Shown here piece by piece: positions 3,762-48,086 of a stretch of 64,000 bases of DNA (its first letter is position 1; every line of letters begins with the position of its first letter). The translations under genes and the position numbers were made by a program. Source of the stretch: a virus; the IMG/VR virus record IMGVR_UViG_3300031857_000037, positions 59,865 to 123,864 of that record; one strand, 5' to 3'. The notes beneath the pieces were generated by a model. That model made no database searches and was not told the origin of the DNA. It saw only the letters and a program-made list of their open reading frames with translations.

Positions 3762-4080
3762 GTGGATCATCGGATTTAAACCGATTAAATATACACCATT
3801 CTGGTGGTGGTATCGTCTGATATCTCATCAAGGATTTCGCTTTGATGATTATCATATGTGGGGGTCTTTCTGGCATTCACTTAATCATGGATGGGAACAT
3901 ATGGAATATGTTTATAAGTTTGAAGAGTATTGGGGCAAGGGTTCTTATCCACCAGAACGCATTTTCTTAAAAGAAGGAGATTTTGATGCTCTAGTGGAAA
4001 GATTATCACTTCCGAGTGAATCAACAATGGAAAGTATTAAGAGAATTATGGACCGTAAAGCACCTTGGGATGAAGAATGA
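3754..4080 (+). CDS. Hypothetical Trp-rich protein (108 aa)
   Basis: I chose the ATG at 3754; an ATG at 3748 is equally possible and neither has a strong ribosome site. The N-terminal half is extremely aromatic (YTPFWWWYRL), followed by HMWGSFWHSLNHGWEHMEY. The tryptophans could form a membrane-surface or carbohydrate-binding face, but this is only an inference from composition. Function unknown. Confidence 0.72.
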   Translation: MNKWIIGFKPIKYTPFWWWYRLISHQGFRFDDYHMWGSFWHSLNHGWEHMEYVYKFEEYWGKGSYPPERIFLKEGDFDALVERLSLPSESTMESIKRIMDRKAPWDEE

Positions 4081-4247
4081 AACGCAACCGTTCTCAAATA
4101 CCTGAGTTTTACAAAGTCGGTTATATTTTAGATTATGAACAGAAATGGGCCTGTTACTTTGACTTTAATTGTGCTCAGGAAGCCATGATGAAGATGATTC
4201 AACGTGGTATAAATGTCACTGGAATGGAAACACAAATGATGGTGTGA
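4077..4247 (+). CDS. Hypothetical protein (56 aa)
   Basis: It starts in an ATGA overlap. It has a basic N-terminus (MKRNRSQIPEFYKVGY) and a methionine-rich helix (QEAMMKMI). The stop codon TGA is inside the first bases of the downstream cassette hairpin, so this gene ends on the cassette edge. Confidence 0.72.
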   Translation: MKRNRSQIPEFYKVGYILDYEQKWACYFDFNCAQEAMMKMIQRGINVTGMETQMMV

Positions 4248-31076: not shown

Positions 31077-31475
31077 ATGACTACGATTTCTCGCAGATTT
31101 AAAGACATAAGTCTCTCGTTTGTGAGAAATCCTGTAACTAATGATATTTTACCTATTAACAATGAGGATGCGATTAAAAAATCTGTTATCAATCTAGTGA
31201 GAACTAGAATGGGTGAAAGAGTTTTTAATTCGCTTTTGGGATCTAGTGTTGAAGATTCTATGTTCCAATTACAAACTCCAGAGATGTCTTATTCTCTGGA
31301 GTTGAACATTACAACTCTTTTAGAAAATTATGAACCTAGAATTTCATTATCTTCTGTTTTAGTTACATATCCGGATGATTCTAATCAAATCAATGTAAGA
31401 ATAGCGTATACTATAATTGGTATACCTGTCCCGGCTCAAACTATAGACTTCATATTACAACCAACTAGAGTCTAA
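31077..31475 (+). CDS. 25: gp25-like baseplate wedge protein (132 aa)
   Basis: T4 gp25 is also 132 residues. The sequence reads SLSFVRNPVTNDILPINNED, AIKKSVINLVRTRMGERVF and an end with IDFILQPTRV, typical of gp25/lysozyme-like baseplate proteins. It is part of the baseplate wedge in contractile tails. It is followed by gp6 through a TAATG overlap, the same order as T4. It carries a late promoter. Confidence 0.92.
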   Translation: MTTISRRFKDISLSFVRNPVTNDILPINNEDAIKKSVINLVRTRMGERVFNSLLGSSVEDSMFQLQTPEMSYSLELNITTLLENYEPRISLSSVLVTYPDDSNQINVRIAYTIIGIPVPAQTIDFILQPTRV

Positions 31476-33349
31476 TGTCATTCAATCAATTCACAAACTT
31501 AGATTTCAGTGATCTTAAGACTCAGATCAAAGATTATTTGCGTGCGAACGGTCAATTTACTGACTTCGATTTTGAGGGTTCAAATTTTTCGGTTTTAATT
31601 GACTTATTAGCATATAATAGCTACATAACTGCCTACAACTCAAATATGGCAGTTAATGAAATGTTTCTTGATAGTGCCACTCTTAGAGAAAATATAGTAT
31701 CCCTAGCCAGAAACATTGGTTATTTACCCAGATCAAAAAGATCATCAAGAGCTTTAATAAATTTTAGCGTTGATATGAGTCAAACAAACGCTAGAAGTGT
31801 AAAGTTACTTGCAGGTCAAGTATCTCTTGGTGCAGTAGTTAATGGAAATTATATTTTTTCAATACCGGAAGATATTGTTACTCCAGTAAATACGGACGGA
31901 ATTGCTATATTTGATAATTTACAAATTTATGAGGGAATATATTTAACAACAACTTTCATAGTAGATGAATCTCAACCAAACCAAAGATTTGTTCTACCTA
32001 ATATTGGAATTGATACCACCACAATTCGAGTAAAAGTTATAAATCAAGTAACAGAAATTTATAATCAATATGATACTCTATTAAATGTTGGTAAAGATTC
32101 AAGAATTTTCTTGATTCAGGAAGTAGGAGATACTAAGTACGAAATTAGATTTGGTGATAATATTATTGGTAAAAAACCATCTAATGGAAGTAGAATAGAA
32201 ATTAGTTATATTGTTACAAATGGATCTTCTGGTAATGGAGCTTCAAACTTTACTTTTTCTGGTAGATTAATTGATAATAATTTATTTGATGTTACCACCG
32301 GAATTTCATTAGTTTTAACTCAATCTAAATCTGAAAATGGTGATAATATTGAATCGATGGATTCTATTAAATATTTCGCACCGAAAGTCTATGCATCTCA
32401 ATATAGGGCAGTGACATCAAATGATTATAAATCACTTATTCCATATGTTTATCCAAACGTAGAGTCCGTAAATTCTTATGGTGGTGATGAATTGGATCCA
32501 CCGGAATATGGAAAAGTTTTTATATCAATAAAGCCAAGAAACGGAACGTTTCTTTCCGAAATTACAAAGCAGAATATTCTAAGTACAATTAAAAAGTATT
32601 CAATTGCAGGTATTAAACCGGAAATAGTTGACTTATCTTACTTGTACGTGGAATTGGATGTTTCAACTTATTATAATGTCAATCTACTAAGTAACCCAGA
32701 AATAGTAAAAACAAAAGTAATTGACACTTTAACCGCATATTCTAACTCCAAAGATGTTAATAGTTTTGGAGGTAGATTCAAATATAGTAAAGTTGTTGGA
32801 CTAATAGATGATTGTGACAAATCAATTACATCTAACATAACAAAAGTTAAGATGAGAAGGGATTTGAATCCAGAGTTAAATACTTTTGCAACATATGAAC
32901 TTTGTTTTGGTAATGAAATACATATTAAAACTGGAGGATACTCTGTAAAGTCTACTGGATTTTTTATTAATGGTGTTTCTGATGTCATTTATATGGCAGA
33001 TGCGGCATCACCTACAAATAAAACTAAAGGAATTATATTTTTCTTTAAATTGGAAAATAATCTTCCAGTAATTATAAAAAATAATGCTGGTACAATAAAT
33101 TATAAACGAGGTGAAATTCTTTTAGACGTTGTTAATATAACATCGTCAGTGTTGGCAAATGGATTCATAGAAGTTCAAGCCATCCCAGAGTCAAACGATA
33201 TTATAGGACTTCAAGATTTGTATTTGCAATTAGATGTTCAAAAATCTGTGGTAAATATTATAGAAGATGTTGTAAGTTCTGGTGAAAATTCTTCTGCAAC
33301 CCAATATGTGGTTACATCAAGTTATCTAAACGGAAAGTATACGAGATAA
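31475..33349 (+). CDS. 6: gp6-like baseplate wedge protein (624 aa)
   Basis: It starts in TAATG. The N-terminus reads FTNLDFSDLKTQIKDYLRAN, then VLIDLLAYNSYITAYNSNMA and TLRENIVSLARNIGYLPRS, which is diagnostic of gp6/J-type proteins. Length is near T4 gp6 (660 aa). It forms the ring that links wedges and changes shape in tail contraction. The C-terminal half (YKSLIPYVYPNVESVNSYGG) is also typical. Confidence 0.92.
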   Translation: MSFNQFTNLDFSDLKTQIKDYLRANGQFTDFDFEGSNFSVLIDLLAYNSYITAYNSNMAVNEMFLDSATLRENIVSLARNIGYLPRSKRSSRALINFSVDMSQTNARSVKLLAGQVSLGAVVNGNYIFSIPEDIVTPVNTDGIAIFDNLQIYEGIYLTTTFIVDESQPNQRFVLPNIGIDTTTIRVKVINQVTEIYNQYDTLLNVGKDSRIFLIQEVGDTKYEIRFGDNIIGKKPSNGSRIEISYIVTNGSSGNGASNFTFSGRLIDNNLFDVTTGISLVLTQSKSENGDNIESMDSIKYFAPKVYASQYRAVTSNDYKSLIPYVYPNVESVNSYGGDELDPPEYGKVFISIKPRNGTFLSEITKQNILSTIKKYSIAGIKPEIVDLSYLYVELDVSTYYNVNLLSNPEIVKTKVIDTLTAYSNSKDVNSFGGRFKYSKVVGLIDDCDKSITSNITKVKMRRDLNPELNTFATYELCFGNEIHIKTGGYSVKSTGFFINGVSDVIYMADAASPTNKTKGIIFFFKLENNLPVIIKNNAGTINYKRGEILLDVVNITSSVLANGFIEVQAIPESNDIIGLQDLYLQLDVQKSVVNIIEDVVSSGENSSATQYVVTSSYLNGKYTR

Positions 33350-33350
33350 A

Positions 33351-36300
33351 ATGTCAGAAATTAAAAGAGTAAAAATCAGCTCGATCATTGGAACCCAAAT
33401 TCCAGAATTCTTATCCATAGAATCTCCGCTTTTTAGTGAGTTTCTTGCACAGTATTACAATTCATTAGAATATCAGTCAGGACCGATTGATATCGTTTCT
33501 AATATTGTAAACTATAAAAATTCTAAAGCATTTAATAATGTAGAGTTAACTGAAAAAACTACTTTAACTTCTGATGTTTTATCTTTTGATGATGTTATAA
33601 ATGTTGAGTCTACTAAAGGTTGGCCAGATTCTTATGGACTGTTGAAAATTAATGATGAAATTATCACTTACTTATCTAAAACTGAAACCTCCTTTCAAAA
33701 TTGCATTAGGGGATTTAGTGGGATTGAGAACCTAGAATCTCTGGATAACCCAGAATTTTTGGTTTTCTCATCAACTAAGGCAGCCGAACATACGGATAAT
33801 AGTGTAGTTCAAAATCTAAGTAATCTATTTTTGATCAAATTTTTTGAAAACTTTAAGTATGAGTTTTTACCTGGTTTTGAATCCAGAGATTTCTACAAAG
33901 ATATTTCCATTGAAAATGTATCTTACAAGATTAAAGACTTATACAAATCAAAAGGAACAGATTTATCATATAAACTTCTCTTCAAAATTTTATATGGCGC
34001 AGATATTGAAATTATAAAACCACAAGATTATACCCTTTCACCATCTTCAAACTCTTATTTTATAACAAAAAATATACTAGTAGAAAAAATTTCTGGCGGT
34101 AATCCAATAGATATCAAGGGTAACTTTTTATTCCAAAACATAACTGGAATTGGTACTGTAAGTGCTTCAATTTTCAACGTTGAGTATCGACCAGTGGGAG
34201 AAAAAGAATTTTATGAAATTTCTTTGGATAGTACATCATTTAGTGGTAATTTTCAAGTTTCGGGTAAAACTAGAATACTGGAAGATGTACAAGTAAACAA
34301 TAGTACTATTTTAGTTGATTCAACTGTAGGATTTGCTAATTCTGGAACTATCCTGGTAAAACCAAAAAATTCCGATTTCATTAAAGTAAGTTATACAGGA
34401 AAGAACATTAATCAATTTACTGGAGTTACAAACGTAACTCAATTTTTAGATTTTGGACTCGATTTAATCGAAGAAAAATTTGCTTTTAGTTATGTTGGAG
34501 TAGGAAATACTTCTAAGGTAGAGTTCCGAGTAGTTAATGTAATTGATAATATTGATTTTTCAAAAACTTCAAATTTAAGAGTTGGAGATAACATATCTTT
34601 ATCTGGATTTGGTAAAGATTTGTATGATACTTATGAGTTTAATAGTTGGATCTATAATATTCCAACTAATCATAACATAAGAAGTATTTCACAAATTGAT
34701 GCCACAAAATACAGAATTAATTTATTTGATAAAATTTATTTTTATCAAAATGAAATTATCTCACTTTCAGATAATCTAGGTAGTTCAATAGAAGCTAAGA
34801 TTATATCCGTTGAATATTCAACTTCAGATTCAATTAAAAAATATAGTAATAGGATACTGATTCAAGTTATAAATCCAGGAACATACAATGTTTTAACTTC
34901 GAAAGTTGTAGGGAAGAAAATTTATAAGTCAAATCATTATAGCAATTATTTTCCAAATCTGGAAAATATTCCTGCAGGCATTCAAAATACATATATTGAT
35001 TCTGAAGAAAAATATTTCTACATTACTTCGTCCGGATTACCAAATTATACAATTTTCTCTACAGATAATAAAAAGACTATATCAACCATAGTAGGAACTT
35101 CCACTACGGATACATTTAATGTTTTTAATCATAACCTGTTTAGTGGAGAATTAGTTTATTATTTGCCGGAAACATCTTCTGGAATATTAACAGGACTTTA
35201 TTATGTCACAAAGATTGATGATAATAGATTAAAATTATCTTATAGTAAGTCTGATATTTTTTCAAGAAAATATATCCAATCCACTTCTACGATTACTAAT
35301 GATTCTCTATATAAGTTTGGATATCAGAATAAAACTCTAAAACACCAGAAACTCTTAAAAAAATTCTATGTTGATAGTAGTAAACCGAGAGAGTCTTTTG
35401 ATGATTTAAATGAAAGAACTACTTTTAACAGAGAAGTGGGGTTATTAGTAAATGGAGTTGAGCTATTATCCCCCAACTTATTTGATGAAAACATTTATTA
35501 TGGCAATATTACTTCAATTAATGTCACTAACTCTGGACAAGATTATGATGTTATAGACGTTCCTCCATTAGAAGTTAAAGATGAGACTGGAACTGGGTTA
35601 AAAGCGCACCTAAACCTCTCAGGCAGTGTTAGAGAAATTAAAATATTAAACGCTGGATATGGATACCAAGAAAAACCAAAAATTACAATAACTGGTGGAA
35701 ATGGTATCGGATGTATACTAGACTCCAACTTTGTTAAAACTAGAGTTTCTGCAGGATTTAAGGCTGATTTAAATGTAAGTACAGCAAATAACACTATACA
35801 ATTTTTAAATACTATCCCATTTGAAGATGGTGAAGAAGTTGTTTATGATTCTAACAAAAATAGTAACGTACCCGGAATTGTAAATAACTCAACCTATTTT
35901 GTAGGCATTCTTACAGATAATAAGATTAAACTCTTTAATACTAAAACAAATGCTCTTCAAAAAGTAAATGAAATTGATATCGTTGGAGTTTCTTCCGGAT
36001 TTCACTTCATAACAACATTAAAAAATAAAAATACTTTTACTAAAATTTATGTTAAAGAGTCTGGACAAGGATACTCAAATAGAAAAGTAAGAGTTCCATC
36101 AATACTTTCTGGAGATAATAGAAGTTCTGGAATTAATACTTTTGATTCGTATATCTTTGCAAAAAGCCACGGATTTAAAGATTTCGATCTTGTAAAGTAT
36201 TCATATCAAGGTTCTGCAATAAGTGGATTATCGACTTCAGTACATTATTATGTCAAAATTATTGATGTCAATAAATTTAGATTATATGAAGCTGGAATTG

Positions 36301-39300
36301 GAACTACTTTAAATAATGAAAATTATGTAAAAAATAAATTTGTAAAATTAAATTCACTTGGAGTAGGTACTCACACTATTGGATATCCTCCTATCGAAAT
36401 ACGTGTAGAATCAAAATTAGCGATAGGATCTACAACTATAATAAATCCAGAACTTAAGCCAATTGTATTGGGATCAATCGAAGATGTTTATCTCGAAGAT
36501 GGTGGAATTGGTTTTGGATGCACAAATATTATTAACTATCATAGAAGACCTAACGTAGGAATTGCAAGTATAACAGCTGAGGCAATTTTAAAACCAATTA
36601 TTATTGATGGATCAATTGTTGATGTTCAAATTATTAACAGAGGAAGGGGATTTAGAGAAAATTCGGAAATTATAATTTATGGCGATGGCAAATATGCACA
36701 AATAGAACCTATTGTTGCGGATGGAAAGTTATCCAATGTAAACATTGTATTTGGTGGTATAGGATACAAGTCATCAAATACTATACTTGTATTGAAAAAT
36801 AGAGGTCAAGATGCTAAGTTCTTAGCCAATGTAAAAGAGTGGAAAATAAATCAAGTTGCAAAAAGTAGAAATGTAATTTCCGAAGAAGATGATGGTGTGC
36901 TTTATCCAAGTAAAAACCCAAATTCGGAACTACAATTCTATAATTTCTATATTCCTAAAAAGTTAAGATATCAGTTATCTGATAATTTTACCGACGATAA
37001 TAAAGAAAATAGTGGAATATTAAATCACTCACCAATTTTAGGTTATGCATATGATGGCAATCCAATCTATGGTGCCTATTCATATGATAAAACTAGTGGT
37101 GGATTCATAAGAAGAATGAATTCTAGCTATGTTTTAAATTTAAATTTAACTCCAGGAATAAGACCTCCATCGTTTGAAAGTGGATTTTTTATTGATGATT
37201 ATGAATATGATGGATCTGGAGATCTTGATCAACATAATGGAAGATTTTGCATTACTCCAGAGTATCCTAATGGAACTTATGCATATTTTTGTACCATAGA
37301 TGTTAATGCCTCTAATGAACCTATCCCAAGATATCCCTACATTGTAGGACCATATTTTTACAATAAACCATTAACTGAAAATTTCTTACCATCGTATAAT
37401 CAGGATCTTGACATCTTTACCAAGAATTTAACTAGAAATGTAGGACCGTATTATTTAAATAGATCCAATTCATATTATGATTTGATTGATAAAGTATCGA
37501 ATGAATACAAACAAGAGTTTTATGTAACCTCAATAAATTCTGGTAAAATAGAAGATGTTTCTATATTCTCCCCTGGAGATAATTATAAAATAAATGACCA
37601 AGTTGATGTTGACATAACAGATACAGAGGGAATACAATCAAATATAGTTGTAAGTGAACTAGATGGTAGAGAAATAGAGTCTTTCAGTTTATTTGAAGAT
37701 TTAATTCCAAATGTAGAATTCTTTATAAGAAATCCAAATACTGTTGTAAAGACAAGTTCTCCACATCAAATTAAAAATGGCCAACCAGTTTTAATAAGTG
37801 GAATATCAACAATTACATCATCAAAATTTGAGGGAATAAAATATGTTGAAGTTGCGGAAAAAACTTCACAATTATTAGATAATATTGCTACAGAAGGTGT
37901 AACTGGACTATCGACATTTATAACATTAAAAGATATCACTGGATTTAAAATTAATGACTTTATCGGTATAGGAACAGAAGTATTATTAATCACTGACATT
38001 GATTCCAAACGATCTGGATTTTATGTAAATAGACTCCAAAATACAGGAGTTCATACCGCAGGAATAGATAGTGTAGTTTTATTACCAAGAGAATTTTCAA
38101 TTCCTACAGGAGATATTAAAGACCTAACTTTTGATAATTATACAACATTTTTTGACCCAAAATTTGCTGTAGGTATTGGTACAAGTGTAACGACTCGCAC
38201 GGTTGTTGGACTTGGCACTACGTCGTTTGAAACCAGATCGATACCACCAAGAAGTATATATTTACCATCACATAAGTTTTATACTGGCCAACCACTAATC
38301 TATAATTCTGGTTTTGCCGGTACATCACTATATGTTAACAATGTAGGATCTGCAACATCCATCAAATTACTTGATAATCAGATAGTTTATGCTGTAAATT
38401 TAGGAAAAGACTATGTTGGACTATCTACGATTGGATTTACTAGTTCTACTGGAATTGGTACTAATTTAAATTCTTTAGAGTTTTGGGATCAAACTTTTGC
38501 TTATGGTGTTATTGGTGCGGCTCATTCATTAACTACTTTAAATCCAAAAATTACGGGAACAGTAGAAAAAGTATTAGGAGTAGTAACTACTAAATCAAAT
38601 CATAATTTAAATAATGATGACATTATTACTCTCAAATTAACTACAGATTATAATGAAGTTGTCAAAGTAGTTTTTGATCCAGTAAATAGAAAAGTTTTAA
38701 TGAGAGAAATTTCTTTCTCGGACAGTAATGTTTCAGTTCAGGAAAGTTCTATAAATGTTTCTTCCTATAATGGTAATATAGAAACTGGTGACAAAGTTGT
38801 TTATATTGCTACATCCCCTATTAATGGACTAGTCAACTATGGTGTTTATTATGTCCTTAAAACAGACTTCAATTCTATAAAATTATGTCAATATAGGAGT
38901 GACATAAATGAATCCAAATTTATTAATTTCTCTTCAACTGGTGGTGTCGGTTCAACTCATAAGTTATATTTTGTCAACCCACAAATTTCATGTGTGAGAA
39001 CTACGAAGATAGAATTTGATTTATCTGATACTAGTTTAATTAATCTTGATTTACAATTCTATTTTGATTCCAATTTCATTCAAAAAATTAATGAAAGAAC
39101 TGGATTTTTTGTAAGTAGACAAGGAGTTCCAGGGAATCCTAATTCCAAAGTTATTTTGGATCTTTCCGCACAGTTTTTCCCAATTTATTATAATCTTTTC
39201 CCCAAAGGTTCTTCAGATGAAAGTAAGAAACAAATATCTTCAGATGATGATGTGAAATCGCATAATAAAATTTCAATCATAAATCATCAACTTAACAGTA

Positions 39301-42300
39301 AATTTAAAGTATCTGTTTCTTCAGATAAAACATTCTCCTTCTATAACACTAAAAAGTTAACTTTTGTTGAAAGTAACATTATTATTCAAAGTGCTACTAA
39401 GTTTTCTTATAAAACAACTTCTACTAATGCATTAGGGCCAATATCTAAATTAAAAATTAATTTCCCAGGTAGAGGTTATAAGAAATTGCCAAATATTAGA
39501 GGAATAAGAAGTTCTTCTGGTAAAAATGCAGTATTGAAACTCATATCTCCAAATATTGGAAGAGTTGAAACTTTTAGTAGAATTAAGGATGGATTTGATT
39601 ATCCAACAGATCCAACATTGTCACCATCCCTAAGTGTTCCTACTGTAATTGGAATAAAAGATATAAGAACCATAGATTATGTTGGAATTATTACTGGCGG
39701 TAAACGTTATAACAGCCCACCAAAACTAGTAGTGAAAAATGATACTAGTGGAATTGAACTTAACGCTAAAATATCTGGTGGATCTGTAATTTCTGTGGAT
39801 GTTATTAAAAACTCCACATCATTATCAACACCATTAGACATTGTTCCAATATACAACTCAAATGGTTATGAAATTGATGCAATTACAGTAGGTGGTGATT
39901 TAGTAACACTCGAATTATTGAATAATTCTACCTTTAATCCTTTCATATCTTCTGGATTTGGAAGAACCGATTTTGTATATCCTTTTAAAATAGGAGATAA
40001 AATTTTTATTGAAAACTGCAGATTGACTGACGTTACATCAGACAATGCCAACTTCAATTCATCTTCATATAATTATTCCTTCTTTGACGTTGTTGGTGTA
40101 AACACTAACAATGCCACTGTAACCTATAACATGGCTGGAATTTCTACAGGATCTTTTGGTACATATAATGATGAACTTAATCTAGGCGTTGTTATTAATA
40201 AAAATGATATGCCAGAATTTACTATGGTGTTAAAAGATGATGTTAGTTATATCTCGAATGAAAAGGTATCTTCAGAAACATTTTTTGGTACAGTAATGGA
40301 AAATGGTTGGGATAATAATCTCAATCAAATGAGATTAAAAAGTATTTCTGGAGAAATAAACGCAGGAGATAAAATTTTTGGAGAAATATCCAAGATAAAT
40401 GGTACAGTTGAATATTTCGATGTATTTAATTTATATGCTACCCTTGGAGTTTCTAGAGATAAAACATCTTCTATAGATCTTTCTTCTGGTATTTTAAACG
40501 ATTCCTTACAAAAAATTTCTGATAATTTTTATTATCAAAAGTTTTCTTATTCAATCAAAGGAAGCATTCCTTACAACGTTTGGAGAGAATCCGTAAGATC
40601 GATTGTACACCCGTCCGGATTTAAGGAATTTTCTGATTTAGAAATTTTTACAAAACCAACTTTAAATGAAGTTAATTTGGGAATTGCTAAATCTACTGGC
40701 ATGAAACCAACTTTACTATCAACAGATTCATTTACTTTTATTAACATTGATCAGACAATACCATTAAATCTGCGGTCAAATTTTGCTAGAGTTTATGAAG
40801 AAGAATTGTTGCCTGATGGATCTATACAAAATGTATATCTTGATGAAGGTGTTGACTTAACATCTTATATAATTAACAAAACAAATAAAGTCATTGAAAT
40901 TGATAACATTAGTGATCAATTTGAAGGAAGTTCCATACAATCGTTAGACCAACGTTTTTATGGAGGTGCTGATTTATTAGAGGGTAATAGAACTTTTATT
41001 CAAGAAGAAGTAGTAGGATTTATTACTACAAAATATCCAGGTATTAGTACAAATGTTGGATGGAGTAAAACTGTATTTTATGATAGTGTTGGATATGTTG
41101 TTGATGCAGTTACCCATGATGTTAAGTATAAATCAAATAATAAATCTATTGAAGGGGGATTGAGTTATTGGGCCGGACTTGGCACTAGTTATGTTGCAGG
41201 AATACCAACCGAAACAATCGATGCATTTAGATATGTTGTAGATTTATCAAAATACATTATTAATAATGTTGGAGTAAAGACATCTTACCAACTATTAAAT
41301 TCTGTTGGAATATCTTCAGTTGTTTATAACAATATAACTGGAGTAACGACTGTTGGAACAACAACTAGCCATGGATTATCTACAACTACTACTAATTATG
41401 TTGTATTAAAGAATATATCCTTCTCATACAATCCAGGCAGTGGAATAACCACTTCAATTTTCCCAAGTTTGAGTTTAACCGGACCATTAACAGCTGAAAA
41501 ATTTGTATATGAGGTTGAAGTTGTCGATTCGGTAAGATTTAGAATAAGAACAGGACCATCAACTATAAGTTATACTTATTTAAGTGGTGGTACAGCTCAA
41601 AAAGCCTTTATATCTACATCTCAATATCTAAGTTATGCAGTTCTACCTGATTTTGATTGTAATCCAAATTACAATGAAAATTGTTATGCAGACGTTCAAG
41701 CATCGGTTAGTAATTATGTTGGAATAATTACTACTATAATTGGGATTGGAACAACAGCAAGTCCTGATACAATAGTATCTCCATCTTTAGCAAAAGGTGG
41801 ATCAGTAGTTGGATTGAGTACTTTTAAATTAAAGAATAAAGGAACTTCTTTGTTTAAACATGAGTTTTCTGGTAGTAAAGTTGATATTGTTAATGACAAG
41901 TTTATAATTCCGAATCATAATTTCCAATCTGGACAAGAGTTAATATATTCATATTCTGGTGGAAGTCCAGTTGGTATTGCAACTACTTCACATGTTACCG
42001 GCAATCTTGATACCCTACTAAATGTTCATAATTTCAGCGGAACAGCTGTTTTTGAAAATGGTTATAATGTTGGAATTACAACTGTTATTTCCGGAACAGT
42101 TCCAACTGGTCCAACTGGAACTGTGAGTTATAATCAAGTAATTGGAGTTAACACTACTGGATTTGGAACAAATGCTGTATTTAATGTTTTAATTAATTAT
42201 AATGGAGGAGGAGTTGCCATATCTACATCTATCATTCCAACTTATGGTGGATATGGATATAGTCTAGGACAACAAGTTTCTATTTCTGGAACTTATTTTG

Positions 42301-45300
42301 GTGGAACAAATCCAACTAATAATTTGACATTCAATATTTCTAAGACAGGCCCTACCGTAATTCAAGCTCAAGCAAATACAAGTTATTCTTCAGTTCCTTC
42401 ATCGGATGCAAGTGGAGCAATTTTTGACGTTTCTAGAGATTCTAACGGTGCTGTTACATATGTAAAAGTACTAAACGGTGGATCCGGCTATACTAGTAAC
42501 TCTGTCATTTCTATAGCAGGAACTTATATTGGAGGAATAAATTCGAGAGATGAACTGTCATTCACACCATTAGAACTTGGCACTAAAAACCTACCAACAT
42601 CAGTGTTTGTCTATAAATTAAATGATAATGAATTTAAACTTTCTGGTTTATCTACAAGTGTATTCTTTGATTTAACTGGTGTAGGTACAGCAACACATTC
42701 ACTTTCATATAAAGAACCAAATGCCAGTGTAGTTATTACCATAGATGGAATAATACAAAAAGCAGTGGCTAGAAAATCACTAAATGTTTCTTTTGCCTCT
42801 AGTGTTTCTTCCGCTTCTACAACAATAATAAGCATTTCCTCTGGAATTTCATCTTTATCCACAGGTGATATTATTAGTATTGATAGTGAATATGTTTCCA
42901 TCAAAACTATTGGTATAACCTCTGCAAATCAAATAGAAGTTGCAAGAGGTTATTTTGGAACAGTTGCAACTGCACATACTGTTGGTGCTAGTGGAACAGT
43001 ATTGGTAGGTGACTTTAATATCGTTGGAGATGTAATATACTTTGATCAAGCTCCAAATGGAAAAATTGGACCAGTTGGATTAGAAACTGGATCTACATTT
43101 GGCGGTAGAGCGTTCAGTAGAAGGTTTGATCCAAATATTCCACAAGATAAAAATATATTATTTGATGATATATCACTATCATTCACTGGTATTGCAGCTA
43201 CAGAATTTACTTTAAAATCTGGTGGACAAACTACTAGTACTGTTTTTAATAACGTAAACAGTTCTACTAATATTAATAACAATCCAATAGTCTTAATTAA
43301 CAATGTATTCCAAAATCCAACAAGTGATTATACAGTTGATGGAGTTGGTACAAACGTAATTAAGTTCTTATCGGGAACTCCAAATTCTGGAAAAATATCA
43401 AAAGTTTCGATTTCAACTAGTTATGGATACGCTCCAAGAATTGGAGCAGCTGCTACTGTAACTGTTTCTGCTGCTGGAACTATTAGTAATGTCATTGTTA
43501 TTGGATCTGGATCTGGATACAGAAATCCTCCTGTTGTTAGTATTGCATCCACTATTGGATTTGGTGCAAGTATTGTAGTTACAGTAAGTGCTGCAGGTAC
43601 AATTTCTGGATTTACTATTGTTAACGCTGGATCTGGATATACCACTACTTCACGACCTGAAGTTGTAATTGGAATCCCAACAGGTTACAGTAACCTAGGT
43701 TTAGGTTATACTGGAGGAACATCTGGAGTCGGCCAAAAGGCAAAACTCACCGTTGAAGTGGGTATGGGATCTAGTATAATAACATATAAATTTGATGAAC
43801 CTGGTATCGGATATAAAGTGGGTGATAAACTTACACCAATTGGAATAGTAACCAATCCAGCACTAAGTTTTCAACCTTTTGTATTAACTGTTGAGGAAGT
43901 AGAGACAGATAGTTTCTCCGGATTTTATCCCGGACAATTTATACAATTTAATGATATTTCCGAATTCTTTAATGGATTCACAAAGAAGTTCACTCTATCA
44001 ACTACGTTAAATGGAGTAAAACAAGTTTTAGGATTAAGAGTTCCTGATGGAACTGATTTGGACATTACCAATAATATTTTTATATACATAAATGACATTT
44101 TACAAGTTCCTAATATAGCATATAAGTTCTCTGGAAGTAGAGTAATATTTACTGAAGCACCTAAGGCTGGATCTAAATGTGTTGTCCTTTACTATAGGGG
44201 ATCTTCAACTGATGTTGAATTAATTGATCCACCTAAAACTATTAAACCTGGAGATACGATAACTATACAGGAAAATCCTACAGATTTATTTGATATTTCT
44301 CAATTTGATAGAGTTGTTAAAAAAATTACATCTGCTGATCAGTTTGAAACATTTAATTATTATTCTGTTGGCATCATTACAGATCCAACAAAGATTAGAC
44401 CTCTTACTTGGAAGAAACAACTTAATGATACTGTCATTAGTGGATCATTATACTCTAAATCTAGACCAAATTTACAGAGCAGTGTTAAACCTTCTGCAAC
44501 TATTATTAAAAAAGTAGATCCCAGTGATACTGTAATATATGTTGATAATGCATATCCATTATTCTCAGATTTGGATGCTCTTCCAGAAGATATAAGAGAT
44601 GCACTAATATTAGAAAATAGAGTTATTCAAGAATCTTTAGGTGAATGTGTAGTTTCATCTGCGTCTACAATTTCATCAATTACCATCATAGATGGTGGAG
44701 TTGGATATGCAAATACACAGTCTCCAAAAGTAATTATTTCCGAGTCACTAATTACTAAAAAAGATCCAATTTTTAATTGGACAGGCGGCGTTGGACTATC
44801 AACTACTTATAGTCTAAAATCTATTAAATATACAAATAAATTCATTTCAGTTGGAGATAATTCAATATATTATACAAGTTTTGATGGAGTAAATTGGCAA
44901 GTTTCTACACTTGGTTTTGGTCAGTCTTCCAATTTTAATTCACTAGAATCGGTTGCTGTTGGATCAAGTAATTTCTTACTTTCTGCAGGAAATCTTGGAC
45001 AAGTAATAAAAGCCACAGATTATGGAAATGTGGTATCTTCATGGACGCAAATCCCATTACAAGAGGATGTTTCAATTCCAGGTTTTGGTGCAGTTAATAG
45101 AGTGAGTAGTGGTTACACGGGAACTTTTGCTGAAATTGTATACTCCAGTACCACTGATACTTGGGTTACAGTTGGTGCTGGTGGATCTATATTTGTCGGA
45201 ACTGGAGTTGCTACTGATTCATTTGTTAGTAGGTATTCGGAAACATTATCTAATTTAAATGGCTTAACTTTTGGAGCTGAGTATTTCGTTGCCGTTGGTA

Positions 45301-46457
45301 ACGATGGAATAATTAGAACATCAAACAATGGAAATATTTGGGAATTTGTAAGTTCTCCAGTTGTTACTAATTTAAATAAGGTTATTTACGTTGATGGGAA
45401 ATATATTGCTGTTGGAGATTATGGAGTAATAATTAGGTCAATAAACAGAAATTCTTATGAAATTATTCCAAATAATCTTGGTATTGTAAACATATCAAGC
45501 ATTTATTATAATTATGGTTTCTATATAATTGTTACATCTTTAGGTGATTTGTACTACTCTTTCGACCTAAGTAATTGGATTTATAGATCAACATCACAAG
45601 CAAACTTCATTAATGATTTAATATTTGTTGATAATCTTGGCTCTGATGGAAGATATGTTGCTATAGGATCTGGAGCTACTGCAATATACGCTGAACCTGT
45701 TTACAATAGAGCGGAAGGTATTTCCAGCGTAACTGCTGGGGTTGTAACTTCTATACAAATTACTAATGGTGGATTTGGATATGATCCAAACAATTCTCCA
45801 CCAGTAATAATAGAACCAGATAGTTGCGATACTGAATTAATTAGATCATTTAAAGTTGTTGGTGATCATGGAATTATTATTGGTATTACAACATATATTA
45901 CTGGAACTCCCGGAATAGGAACAACATCTCCAAAAATTTCCTTTACATTAAAATCGGAACAATATGATAATAGTACTTTAGGAATTGGTTATTCCTCTCT
46001 TAATATTTTTGGAGTTCTTAATAGTCAATTATCTAAAGGAGATTATTTTGTTATTACTGACAGTAATGTTGAGACTGGTGGAGATTTAGTTGGAATTACG
46101 ACACTTCTTGGTGGAATGTCCAACTATCCGAATTCTAAAATTGGTATAGCGAAATCTTTCATAGATGGAGTTTACATTGTAGAAGACATAACCACTCCTT
46201 CGGTTGGTATTGTTACAGTTACTTGTAACTTTGCTCCGATGGTTGATAACTATCTTAAAGTTTATTCTAGAGGTTCTAATAATTCGGGTGTTGGAACGAA
46301 TAATTATTATGGTAGATATAGTTGGGCTAAGATTTTTGATTATCAAAATAGAATTTTGGGTAATCCAAAAACTTTTGAAGTTTTTAATGATAATGGAATT
46401 TCTGGAATTTCATCTTCGCCGAAAATTATAAGAACGAGAAGTGTAATAAGTAAGTAA
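33351..46457 (+). CDS. Giant structural protein in the gp7 position (4368 aa)
   Basis: The N-terminus (QIPEFLSIESPLFSEFLAQY) matches the start of cyanophage baseplate-associated proteins that replace T4 gp7 (1032 aa). At about 1230-1330 is a YHYH-like domain (GYAYDGNPIYGAYSY, DLDQHNGRF, PNGTYAYFCTI). A propeller-like region at about 3820-4120 has BNR-type repeats (SFDGVNWQ, SNNGNIWEF). More than ten GGxGYxxxPxVxI motifs are scattered over the length. It has a repetitive beta-rich build and no frameshift. It probably forms long fibrous or spike parts on the baseplate (inference). Confidence 0.85.
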   Translation: MSEIKRVKISSIIGTQIPEFLSIESPLFSEFLAQYYNSLEYQSGPIDIVSNIVNYKNSKAFNNVELTEKTTLTSDVLSFDDVINVESTKGWPDSYGLLKINDEIITYLSKTETSFQNCIRGFSGIENLESLDNPEFLVFSSTKAAEHTDNSVVQNLSNLFLIKFFENFKYEFLPGFESRDFYKDISIENVSYKIKDLYKSKGTDLSYKLLFKILYGADIEIIKPQDYTLSPSSNSYFITKNILVEKISGGNPIDIKGNFLFQNITGIGTVSASIFNVEYRPVGEKEFYEISLDSTSFSGNFQVSGKTRILEDVQVNNSTILVDSTVGFANSGTILVKPKNSDFIKVSYTGKNINQFTGVTNVTQFLDFGLDLIEEKFAFSYVGVGNTSKVEFRVVNVIDNIDFSKTSNLRVGDNISLSGFGKDLYDTYEFNSWIYNIPTNHNIRSISQIDATKYRINLFDKIYFYQNEIISLSDNLGSSIEAKIISVEYSTSDSIKKYSNRILIQVINPGTYNVLTSKVVGKKIYKSNHYSNYFPNLENIPAGIQNTYIDSEEKYFYITSSGLPNYTIFSTDNKKTISTIVGTSTTDTFNVFNHNLFSGELVYYLPETSSGILTGLYYVTKIDDNRLKLSYSKSDIFSRKYIQSTSTITNDSLYKFGYQNKTLKHQKLLKKFYVDSSKPRESFDDLNERTTFNREVGLLVNGVELLSPNLFDENIYYGNITSINVTNSGQDYDVIDVPPLEVKDETGTGLKAHLNLSGSVREIKILNAGYGYQEKPKITITGGNGIGCILDSNFVKTRVSAGFKADLNVSTANNTIQFLNTIPFEDGEEVVYDSNKNSNVPGIVNNSTYFVGILTDNKIKLFNTKTNALQKVNEIDIVGVSSGFHFITTLKNKNTFTKIYVKESGQGYSNRKVRVPSILSGDNRSSGINTFDSYIFAKSHGFKDFDLVKYSYQGSAISGLSTSVHYYVKIIDVNKFRLYEAGIGTTLNNENYVKNKFVKLNSLGVGTHTIGYPPIEIRVESKLAIGSTTIINPELKPIVLGSIEDVYLEDGGIGFGCTNIINYHRRPNVGIASITAEAILKPIIIDGSIVDVQIINRGRGFRENSEIIIYGDGKYAQIEPIVADGKLSNVNIVFGGIGYKSSNTILVLKNRGQDAKFLANVKEWKINQVAKSRNVISEEDDGVLYPSKNPNSELQFYNFYIPKKLRYQLSDNFTDDNKENSGILNHSPILGYAYDGNPIYGAYSYDKTSGGFIRRMNSSYVLNLNLTPGIRPPSFESGFFIDDYEYDGSGDLDQHNGRFCITPEYPNGTYAYFCTIDVNASNEPIPRYPYIVGPYFYNKPLTENFLPSYNQDLDIFTKNLTRNVGPYYLNRSNSYYDLIDKVSNEYKQEFYVTSINSGKIEDVSIFSPGDNYKINDQVDVDITDTEGIQSNIVVSELDGREIESFSLFEDLIPNVEFFIRNPNTVVKTSSPHQIKNGQPVLISGISTITSSKFEGIKYVEVAEKTSQLLDNIATEGVTGLSTFITLKDITGFKINDFIGIGTEVLLITDIDSKRSGFYVNRLQNTGVHTAGIDSVVLLPREFSIPTGDIKDLTFDNYTTFFDPKFAVGIGTSVTTRTVVGLGTTSFETRSIPPRSIYLPSHKFYTGQPLIYNSGFAGTSLYVNNVGSATSIKLLDNQIVYAVNLGKDYVGLSTIGFTSSTGIGTNLNSLEFWDQTFAYGVIGAAHSLTTLNPKITGTVEKVLGVVTTKSNHNLNNDDIITLKLTTDYNEVVKVVFDPVNRKVLMREISFSDSNVSVQESSINVSSYNGNIETGDKVVYIATSPINGLVNYGVYYVLKTDFNSIKLCQYRSDINESKFINFSSTGGVGSTHKLYFVNPQISCVRTTKIEFDLSDTSLINLDLQFYFDSNFIQKINERTGFFVSRQGVPGNPNSKVILDLSAQFFPIYYNLFPKGSSDESKKQISSDDDVKSHNKISIINHQLNSKFKVSVSSDKTFSFYNTKKLTFVESNIIIQSATKFSYKTTSTNALGPISKLKINFPGRGYKKLPNIRGIRSSSGKNAVLKLISPNIGRVETFSRIKDGFDYPTDPTLSPSLSVPTVIGIKDIRTIDYVGIITGGKRYNSPPKLVVKNDTSGIELNAKISGGSVISVDVIKNSTSLSTPLDIVPIYNSNGYEIDAITVGGDLVTLELLNNSTFNPFISSGFGRTDFVYPFKIGDKIFIENCRLTDVTSDNANFNSSSYNYSFFDVVGVNTNNATVTYNMAGISTGSFGTYNDELNLGVVINKNDMPEFTMVLKDDVSYISNEKVSSETFFGTVMENGWDNNLNQMRLKSISGEINAGDKIFGEISKINGTVEYFDVFNLYATLGVSRDKTSSIDLSSGILNDSLQKISDNFYYQKFSYSIKGSIPYNVWRESVRSIVHPSGFKEFSDLEIFTKPTLNEVNLGIAKSTGMKPTLLSTDSFTFINIDQTIPLNLRSNFARVYEEELLPDGSIQNVYLDEGVDLTSYIINKTNKVIEIDNISDQFEGSSIQSLDQRFYGGADLLEGNRTFIQEEVVGFITTKYPGISTNVGWSKTVFYDSVGYVVDAVTHDVKYKSNNKSIEGGLSYWAGLGTSYVAGIPTETIDAFRYVVDLSKYIINNVGVKTSYQLLNSVGISSVVYNNITGVTTVGTTTSHGLSTTTTNYVVLKNISFSYNPGSGITTSIFPSLSLTGPLTAEKFVYEVEVVDSVRFRIRTGPSTISYTYLSGGTAQKAFISTSQYLSYAVLPDFDCNPNYNENCYADVQASVSNYVGIITTIIGIGTTASPDTIVSPSLAKGGSVVGLSTFKLKNKGTSLFKHEFSGSKVDIVNDKFIIPNHNFQSGQELIYSYSGGSPVGIATTSHVTGNLDTLLNVHNFSGTAVFENGYNVGITTVISGTVPTGPTGTVSYNQVIGVNTTGFGTNAVFNVLINYNGGGVAISTSIIPTYGGYGYSLGQQVSISGTYFGGTNPTNNLTFNISKTGPTVIQAQANTSYSSVPSSDASGAIFDVSRDSNGAVTYVKVLNGGSGYTSNSVISIAGTYIGGINSRDELSFTPLELGTKNLPTSVFVYKLNDNEFKLSGLSTSVFFDLTGVGTATHSLSYKEPNASVVITIDGIIQKAVARKSLNVSFASSVSSASTTIISISSGISSLSTGDIISIDSEYVSIKTIGITSANQIEVARGYFGTVATAHTVGASGTVLVGDFNIVGDVIYFDQAPNGKIGPVGLETGSTFGGRAFSRRFDPNIPQDKNILFDDISLSFTGIAATEFTLKSGGQTTSTVFNNVNSSTNINNNPIVLINNVFQNPTSDYTVDGVGTNVIKFLSGTPNSGKISKVSISTSYGYAPRIGAAATVTVSAAGTISNVIVIGSGSGYRNPPVVSIASTIGFGASIVVTVSAAGTISGFTIVNAGSGYTTTSRPEVVIGIPTGYSNLGLGYTGGTSGVGQKAKLTVEVGMGSSIITYKFDEPGIGYKVGDKLTPIGIVTNPALSFQPFVLTVEEVETDSFSGFYPGQFIQFNDISEFFNGFTKKFTLSTTLNGVKQVLGLRVPDGTDLDITNNIFIYINDILQVPNIAYKFSGSRVIFTEAPKAGSKCVVLYYRGSSTDVELIDPPKTIKPGDTITIQENPTDLFDISQFDRVVKKITSADQFETFNYYSVGIITDPTKIRPLTWKKQLNDTVISGSLYSKSRPNLQSSVKPSATIIKKVDPSDTVIYVDNAYPLFSDLDALPEDIRDALILENRVIQESLGECVVSSASTISSITIIDGGVGYANTQSPKVIISESLITKKDPIFNWTGGVGLSTTYSLKSIKYTNKFISVGDNSIYYTSFDGVNWQVSTLGFGQSSNFNSLESVAVGSSNFLLSAGNLGQVIKATDYGNVVSSWTQIPLQEDVSIPGFGAVNRVSSGYTGTFAEIVYSSTTDTWVTVGAGGSIFVGTGVATDSFVSRYSETLSNLNGLTFGAEYFVAVGNDGIIRTSNNGNIWEFVSSPVVTNLNKVIYVDGKYIAVGDYGVIIRSINRNSYEIIPNNLGIVNISSIYYNYGFYIIVTSLGDLYYSFDLSNWIYRSTSQANFINDLIFVDNLGSDGRYVAIGSGATAIYAEPVYNRAEGISSVTAGVVTSIQITNGGFGYDPNNSPPVIIEPDSCDTELIRSFKVVGDHGIIIGITTYITGTPGIGTTSPKISFTLKSEQYDNSTLGIGYSSLNIFGVLNSQLSKGDYFVITDSNVETGGDLVGITTLLGGMSNYPNSKIGIAKSFIDGVYIVEDITTPSVGIVTVTCNFAPMVDNYLKVYSRGSNNSGVGTNNYYGRYSWAKIFDYQNRILGNPKTFEVFNDNGISGISSSPKIIRTRSVISK

Positions 46458-46490: not shown

Positions 46491-48086
46491 ATGCCCGCCA
46501 TAATATCAGACCAGTTTAGAATTTTAAATGCAGATAACTTTGTAAAAAGTGTCTCTGGAGTAGGTGATACTTCTAACAAATACTATACTTTTATAGGACT
46601 TCCTAATAGTAATAATCCAGCTGCTGGTGGATCTGTGAATTGGGTTTCAAATACTCCATCTCCATTGGATGGATTTAGGGAAGAATATCAGGTTAAAGAA
46701 AGTATTATATCTTTAAAGCAAATTTCAAGTCAAGATGTACGAAGACTTGTTAGAAAAGTTACTTGGGTTGCAGGTAACACTTATGAAATGTATAGACACG
46801 ACTATGATGTATTCAATGTCACCTCTGTTACATCTCAAACAAGTTTATATGAAGCAAATTATTATGTAATAAACGAAGATTTGAGAGTTTATGTATGTTT
46901 GCAAAATGGAACTGATCCTGAAAATCCAAAAGGAAGACCTTCTTTTGACCAACCAACTTTTATTGATTTAGAACCTAGAGCAGCTGGTGCTAGTGGAGAT
47001 GGTTATATATGGAAATATTTGTATACTATCAAACCTTCTGAAATTGTTAAGTTTGACTCTATTGAATATATCCCAGTACCAGAAAATTGGGGCAATACTG
47101 GTGAATCAATATCTACAAAAAATAATGCAATTGATGGTAAAATTGAAGTTATTCTTATTAATAATAGAGGATCAAATTATCAACCAATTTCTACATCATT
47201 TTCAAATGTTCCTATTTTAGGTGATGGTTCTGGAGGAAAAGCAACTATAACTATTGACTCTTTTGGTAAAGTATCTGAAGTTTTTGTTACAGATGGTGGA
47301 AATGGGTATACTTATGGTACAATTCAATTCTATCCAGGAGCTCCTGGTTCCGAAATTACTGGTCCTTTGCGTCAATTAAGTAATACTGGAATCGGAACTA
47401 CATCAGTGGCTTCTTTCAATGTTATTATTCCACCAAAAGGTGGTCATGGATACGATATTTATCGAGAATTGGGTGCATATAGAGTTTTATTATACTCTAG
47501 ATATGAAACTTTAGAAAGTAACCCAGATATTATTTTGGGAAATGACTTTGCTAGAATTGGAATTTTGAAAAATCCAACAATAGTTGGAAGTAGTAACCAA
47601 TTATTAGATGCATCTTTGGTTAGTGGACTAAATGCTCTAAAATTATCTGGAGTTACAACTAATACAACATATGGTGTTGATTCTGTAATCAAACAGACTG
47701 TTGGATTAGGATCTACTGCAATTGGATTTGTATCATCTTGGGATCCAATAACAGGAGTTTTAAAGTATTATCAACCAACTGGTCTAGCTTCAAGTGAAAC
47801 AGGATTCAAGATTATTCCTTTCACATCCAATCCAGATGTTGGATATGGATTGACAATTAATTGTTCATCAATTGTTGGTCCAACATTATCAATTAATTCT
47901 AATTTTAGTGGCGTAAGTACCACAATAAATAATAGAATATATCAGTTGGGTCAAGAGTTTGTAGCGGGTATTTCCTCTGCTGAATATAATAAAAAATCGG
48001 GTGACATTATCTATTTGGATAATAGACAACCAATTCCCAGATCTGCTAACCAAAAAGAAGACATTAAAATTGTACTGGAGTTCTAA
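46491..48086 (+). CDS. 8: gp8-like baseplate wedge protein (531 aa)
   Basis: N-terminus MPAIISDQFRILNADNFVKS, then RRLVRKVTWVAGNTYEMYRH and GDGYIWKYLYTIKPSEIVKF match gp8 of T4-like cyanophages. T4 gp8 is 334 aa; this one is longer, with an insertion containing a GGNGYTYGTIQF motif as in the giant upstream protein. It is part of the wedge. Start at ATG 46491; the ATG at 46481 stops at once. Confidence 0.9.
   Translation: MPAIISDQFRILNADNFVKSVSGVGDTSNKYYTFIGLPNSNNPAAGGSVNWVSNTPSPLDGFREEYQVKESIISLKQISSQDVRRLVRKVTWVAGNTYEMYRHDYDVFNVTSVTSQTSLYEANYYVINEDLRVYVCLQNGTDPENPKGRPSFDQPTFIDLEPRAAGASGDGYIWKYLYTIKPSEIVKFDSIEYIPVPENWGNTGESISTKNNAIDGKIEVILINNRGSNYQPISTSFSNVPILGDGSGGKATITIDSFGKVSEVFVTDGGNGYTYGTIQFYPGAPGSEITGPLRQLSNTGIGTTSVASFNVIIPPKGGHGYDIYRELGAYRVLLYSRYETLESNPDIILGNDFARIGILKNPTIVGSSNQLLDASLVSGLNALKLSGVTTNTTYGVDSVIKQTVGLGSTAIGFVSSWDPITGVLKYYQPTGLASSETGFKIIPFTSNPDVGYGLTINCSSIVGPTLSINSNFSGVSTTINNRIYQLGQEFVAGISSAEYNKKSGDIIYLDNRQPIPRSANQKEDIKIVLEF

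Follow-up and report, generated by a model that had tools for sequence, protein, structure and literature searches.

A Ycf48-type propeller module in the giant gp7 baseplate wedge protein of a T4-like cyanophage

Background

What does a protein more than four thousand residues long do in a phage baseplate, and what do the YHYH-like and propeller-like regions within it contribute? The question is raised by a single gene in a viral sequence of 64,000 nucleotides (hereafter the window), a portion of an IMG/VR record of 123,864 bases (IMGVR_UViG_3300031857_000037). An earlier note had described its product as a baseplate protein with a degenerate YHYH motif and a sialidase-like propeller. Propellers often act as binding platforms, and the role of this one is the main subject here. 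We did not find psbA in the parent record, which may be incomplete, so the assignment to a cyanobacterial host comes from the relatives of the virus only.

Results

The open reading frame at 33351..46457 (+) starts with ATG, contains no internal stops and encodes 4368 aa. PHROG 2885, annotated as baseplate wedge subunit, matched aa 5-2531 of the product with E=0, and a tblastn search with its first 1000 aa matched gp7 of S-SSM7, S-SCSM2R and others at 47-54%. The same N-terminal stretch was matched in 466 of 50,697 phage records, nearly all of them cyanophages. Upstream are a gp25-like baseplate wedge subunit (31077..31475, +; PHROG 261, E=1.5e-43) and, directly adjoining, the wedge subunit gp6 (31475..33349, +; PHROG 219, E=1e-197; Pfam Gp6-like_1st, E=1.5e-16). 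The wedge subunit gp8 lies directly downstream (46491..48086, +; PHROG 438, E=1.5e-157; Pfam Phage-Gp8, E=5e-11), and also downstream is a DUF4815 protein of 2494 aa, at the position of which S-SM2 has a gene annotated VrlC. PHROG and Pfam matches give the order gp25-gp6-gp7-gp8, with the giant gene between gp6 and gp8 as for T4-type gp7. Judged from its sequence and gene order, the 4368-aa protein is the gp7 baseplate wedge protein of a T4-like cyanophage, and the earlier description of it as a baseplate protein holds.

The protein had also been put at about four times the size of T4 gp7 (1032 aa), and the ratio is indeed 4.2. Isolates carry gp7 of 5172 aa (S-SCSM2R), 5195 aa (P-SSM2), 4156 aa (S-SM2), 4067 aa (Bellamy), 4024 aa (S-B05), 4307 aa (P-TIM68) and 3884 aa (S-CAM9). 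Since 3884-5195 aa is the normal range among isolates, a length of 4368 aa is ordinary, and we rejected the idea that the window gp7 is unusual in size.

The gene is not always a single frame. In S-SSM7 (L002, 16001-35057) and Sf-FS3 (L213, 17001-34530), gp7 consists of two ORFs around a 340-aa gene of gp9 type, as judged by its match to PHROG 677 ('baseplate wedge tail fiber protein connector'); the break corresponds to about aa 3190 of the window protein. A gene resembling this gp9-type connector sits between gp7 and gp8 in S-B05 and P-TIM68. The gp7 of DSL-LC02 (L258, 11980-23826) is also split, with no gene between the parts, and a split is also possible in L027, where the propeller frame starts at locus position 1054. 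PBPE01000070 (L217/L240), a contig labelled as a Dehalococcoidia MAG that is probably phage, encodes in a frame of 3306 aa both a gp7-like stretch (E=2e-8) and a YHYH region of YAYF type.

Two stretches of the window protein can be anchored on T4 gp7. The first, aa 190-270 (33918..34160, +), corresponds to T4 gp7 aa 726-790 by hhalign and by a profile search of the PDB. Profile-profile comparison with six T4-type gp7 proteins (hhalign) gave a probability of 95% and P=2.8e-8 for this anchor, the longer printed alignment beyond these limits not being reliable. In the PDB search, a profile built from the N-terminal 2,530 aa of gp7 from eleven cyanophages retrieved T4-type gp7 at E=3e-6 and 4e-5, with aa ~188-221 aligned to T4 726-759. 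The second and weaker anchor, aa 2332-2425 (40344..40625, +), corresponds to T4 815-887 (hhalign; PHROG 17744 and 26741) and holds the motif SIKxxxPxxxWxxxVxxxVHPxGF, a colinear but weak match (hhalign P=1.3e-4, probability 54%). The motif spacing is 149-151 aa in the six T4-type gp7 proteins and 2,223 aa in the window protein. PHROG 17744 and 26741, two short gp7-like families, were matched both by T4 gp7 and by the two cyanophage anchor stretches. Profile searches gave no match between T4 gp7 aa 1-725 and the window protein, which has just 190 aa ahead of the first anchor. The anchor matches, their spacing and the two shared PHROG families indicate that cyanophage gp7 is a T4-gp7-like portion split by an insertion of ~2,070 aa, with a long C-terminal tail added. 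In T4, the (gp6)2-gp7 heterotrimer, which includes a trifurcation domain, forms a core unit of the wedge (PMC6300606), and by analogy the gp7-like part of the cyanophage protein would be seated in a (gp6)2-gp7 wedge core.

Within the insertion lies the region that had been called YHYH-like, and the family assignment was confirmed: Pfam PF14240 (YHYH) matched aa 1223-1320 (37017..37310, +) with E=2e-25 and 90.4 bits (cut-off 25) over positions 89-186 of the 193 in the profile. Its motifs GYAYDGNPIYG and GTYAYFCTI start at aa 1231 and aa 1308, respectively. A YHYH region occupies the matching place in all 11 cyanophage gp7 proteins compared (ten isolates and the window), and the stretch was matched in 463 phage records. 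Its form is of YAYF type and lacks the canonical histidines. The first half of canonical YHYH proteins contains GHP..G.YHYH and the second half HGHTH...YHYH, and the motif region of one canonical domain contains eight histidines; the window gp7 has GTYAYF instead of GTYHYH and no histidine within the 130 aa preceding HSP. Both histidine clusters are lost from the gp7 form as far as these alignments reach. The motif had been regarded as degenerate, a description that does not fit, for every gp7 relative examined has GxYAYx as its fixed form: the 11 aligned proteins show no variation in Y-A-Y, all of the ~80 metagenomic relatives have GxYAY[F/Y], and P-TIM68 gp7 has YAYH. A DNA pattern for the canonical GTYHYH gave chance hits only across the viral contigs. 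AlphaFold2 modelled the YHYH region poorly (pLDDT 49), the adjoining GGxGY repeats alone being modelled with confidence.

A YAYF-type subfamily of PF14240 also occurs in Bacteroidetes secreted proteins of ~450-550 aa (L231-L241), which have kept the first histidine cluster (GHPAMGNYHHH) and lost the second, YHYH being absent. The search patterns were biased towards YAYF, so nothing can be read from how often such proteins occur.

GGxGY beta-repeats recur about ten times along gp7, including at 36498-36800. AlphaFold2 gave a pLDDT above 90 for two of them next to the YHYH region, where the gp7 profile also matched the tailspike Dpo31 weakly (28LX, E=0.003). Two further repeats enclose the propeller, at aa 3777-3800 (44679..44750, +) ahead of it and at aa 4136-4164 (45756..45842, +) behind it, as located by a repeat scan and by alignment to empty sites.

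The earlier note had expected a propeller at about aa 3820-4120 and had proposed domain structure prediction as a check. AlphaFold2, run on 24 sequences, predicted a beta-propeller with high confidence at aa 3806-4119 (44766..45707, +; supported by Foldseek and HMM boundaries), with a mean pLDDT of 81 and values above 90 over most of this span. The strands of the model are arranged in fours with an N-terminal strand closing the ring, which by strand order predicts seven blades. The three repeat motifs that had been listed are all present: SFDGVNW at aa 3843 in blade 1 (44877..44897, +), Asp-box-like but one residue shorter than the canonical form, SNNGNIW at aa 3991 in blade 4 (45321..45341, +) and FDLSNW at aa 4071. 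Within the whole of gp7, the form S??G??W occurs in the propeller region only. A looser blade motif occurs three times there and nowhere else, with 0.013 expected from shuffles, a figure that is indicative only since the motif was written after inspection of the sequence. The YHYH, blade-motif and propeller features of gp7 are not due to chance.

Foldseek ranked Ycf48 first (5OJR, 5OJ3, 5OJ5; TM 0.66-0.72 by target length), followed by WD40 proteins, and the structural alignments between the window propeller and Ycf48 showed 14-19% identity. By sequence, the window propeller matched nothing in Pfam, PSII_BNR included, and neither it nor its profiles gave anything significant against the PDB. 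The link by sequence runs through a relative, L031, which is 60% identical to the window propeller, matched PF14870 (PSII_BNR) with 34.3 bits (cut-off 27) and alone reached Ycf48 in the PDB (E=3e-7). Counting hits up to E=10, 13 of 24 relatives matched Pfam PSII_BNR (Ycf48), the best at E=2e-9. Among solved structures, Ycf48 propellers come closest to the window propeller, both in fold and, by way of this relative, in sequence. In the viral library its best match was S-SSM7 gp7, and a 'BNR repeat domain protein' of S-CBWM1 was among those next.

Two family assignments were rejected. We do not class the propeller as a Ycf48 equivalog: with NCBIfam NF010237, L031 scored 29.8 bits (E=3e-7) against a cut-off of 326, and the window protein gave no hit. 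Nor could the label 'sialidase-like' be upheld, since the canonical Asp box (S-x-D-x-G-x-x-W) is lacking from the window propeller, Pfam searches of the window gp7 and 24 relatives gave neither a BNR nor a sialidase family, and Ycf48 and WD40 folds rank first.

Comparison with other gp7 proteins by blast showed that the propeller is absent as a block from several of them. The alignment to S-B05 jumps from 3798 to 4120 in the window protein and only from 3806 to 3815 in S-B05, that to S-SM2 jumps from 3811 to 4129 against 3915 to 3926, and Bellamy and P-SSM2 show an equivalent jump. Once aa 3806-4119 are removed, the flanks align to all four, leaving a short linker of variable length flanked by GGxGY repeats. 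As read from these alignments, the propeller is a module cleanly inserted in the linker between two such repeats. By tblastn it was found at the gp7 site in 14 phage records, as against 466 with the gp7 N-terminus, and all 14 are Synechococcus phages or labelled cyanophage; on these counts it is carried by a minority of gp7 relatives only. The propeller is 36, 39 and 35% identical to those of S-SCSM2R, Sf-FS3 and S-SSM7, while the flanks are 50-60% identical. Among close relatives, dN/dS is 0.15 in the propeller and 0.12-0.13 in the flanks, with no positive selection seen in the propeller. Since this value is low and just above that of the flanks, it gives no sign of the selection expected of a host-range determinant. 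Loop entropy on the propeller faces, assigned from strand order, gave no clear signal of a conserved binding face. A propeller match with in-frame stops lies on a contig of 121,674 bases (L046, 6001-6944), where a frameshift or a sequencing error may be responsible.

Discussion

We hold with moderate confidence that a T4-gp7-like part of this protein sits in the wedge core, split by the insertion, and that the propeller in its tail is a non-catalytic binding module. In this arrangement, the T4-gp7-like part, made up of both anchor stretches, would fix gp7 in each wedge as part of its (gp6)2-gp7 core. The ~2,070-aa insertion between the anchors carries a YHYH domain that lacks the predicted metal ligands. 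The ~1,950-aa tail behind them is rich in beta-repeats and in the window's subgroup has gained a seven-bladed Ycf48-type propeller in the linker between two GGxGY repeats. Insertion and tail would reach outward from the wedge. The T4 baseplate has six copies of gp7 (PMC3004832), and the same number here would give a ring of six non-catalytic propeller binding domains, which would either dock on a component of the cyanobacterial surface, protein or glycan, or secure a tail fibre at the rim; of these roles, adsorption is slightly preferred. We infer the position of the propeller at the rim, its copy number in the window phage and any ligand; the most likely role of the propeller is binding, not catalysis, at the rim of the baseplate. 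Its optional presence and faster divergence slightly favour contact with the host, and, given a low dN/dS in a structural protein, a fibre or connector is nearly as likely to be the partner. Precedents for propellers on or close to a phage baseplate are phi11 Gp45 and phiKZ gp131C (PMC4901313).

The alternative that survives best, a tentative one that we rate below the binding module, is that the propeller is an internal scaffold for a virion protein such as a gp9-like connector or a fibre and has no dealings with the host. The rest of gp7 is structural, dN/dS in the propeller is low, a gp9-type connector gene separates the two gp7 ORFs of S-SSM7 and Sf-FS3, and Ycf48 is known as an assembly factor that binds protein, as in its PDB entries with a D1 peptide. 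Yet most cyanophage gp7 proteins lack the propeller and have a short linker instead where looked at, so the propeller is dispensable for a working baseplate, and it diverges faster than its flanks.

A propeller that recognises decorated host surfaces as a glycan-binding or sialidase-like domain seems unlikely to us. A propeller fold is indeed predicted, the propeller of phi11 Gp45 has a modelled GlcNAc pocket (PMC4901313), and short S-x-[DN]-G-x-x-W boxes occur in the window propeller; but the canonical Asp box is lacking in the window and BNR/sialidase Pfam families are lacking among the 24 members, and the folds ranked first are Ycf48 and WD40, with seven blades by strand order. Glycan binding as such is one possibility among several, with nothing specific in its support.

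A still bolder picture, in which a subgroup of T4-like cyanophages carries in gp7 a ring of propellers derived from Ycf48, a cyanobacterial photosystem assembly factor, as built-in host recognition separate from the fibres, strikes us as improbable. We give even less credence to a propeller captured from a host Ycf48 gene that still binds a host (photosynthetic) protein. Ycf48 is the closest relative by sequence and fold, and L031 matched the NCBIfam Ycf48 model, but its score falls far under the equivalog cut-off, PSII_BNR also occurs outside cyanobacteria (the controls Caulobacter, Deinobacterium and Bacteroides), and a thylakoid target would be beyond the reach of the baseplate before injection. 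Least credible of all is an active tail-associated metal hydrolase in the YHYH region attacking the cell wall: phage YHYH domains have been predicted to be Zn hydrolases with conserved histidines and an aspartate as metal site (PMC7824862) and PF14240 does match, but Y-A-Y is invariant in the gp7 relatives examined, the window has YAYF for YHYH and the canonical histidines are gone, which makes that role unlikely in gp7.

T4 gp7 has been stated to be absent from these cyanophages, with VrlC in its place (PMC7029224); the anchors point instead to a portion of T4 gp7 in these phages that a giant insertion interrupts, with the VrlC-like gene standing apart from it as a neighbour. With its histidines invariably lost, gp7 sets a limit to the published metal-hydrolase proposal for phage YHYH domains (PMC7824862). 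Because the propeller is cleanly there or missing at one site, natural pairs are available, S-SSM7 or S-SCSM2R with it against S-B05 or Bellamy without, in which the role of the module can be tested. The gp7 family is known, but we found neither the insertion architecture nor the Ycf48-type module described in the literature searched, which makes no mention of a propeller in cyanophage gp7.

Set against known systems, the window protein is closest to the cyanophage gp7 annotated as 'baseplate wedge initiator' (PHROG 2885). The gp7 proteins of S-SSM7, S-SCSM2R, Sf-FS3 and S-CAM9 share its locus order and have the core with the YHYH region and the propeller at the same positions; lengths vary through inserts, and the window gp7 is a single ORF whereas those of S-SSM7 and Sf-FS3 are two ORFs around a gp9-type gene. 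T4 gp7 (PDB 5IV5, 5HX2) shares the position by gp6 and gp8 and matches over aa 726-790 and, more weakly, 815-887, but it lacks the ~2,070 extra aa between the anchors and has ~145 aa behind the second anchor where the window protein has ~1,950. In the PF14240 YHYH domain, gp7 matches the C-terminal half well and leaves the N-terminal half unmatched, with the canonical histidines lost; its NGRFC...GxYAYF form is common to the Bacteroidetes secreted proteins of that family. Ycf48/PSII_BNR (PF14870; PDB 2XBG, 5OJR) likewise has seven blades, gives the best Foldseek hits and is matched by sequence in relatives, but Ycf48 is a free photosystem factor, whereas the window propeller lies inside a giant virion protein. 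The phiKZ gp131C propeller also has seven blades, as predicted for the window propeller; phi11 Gp45 and phiKZ gp131C are dedicated receptor-binding or periphery proteins, whereas the window propeller is an insert in gp7 (PMC4901313).
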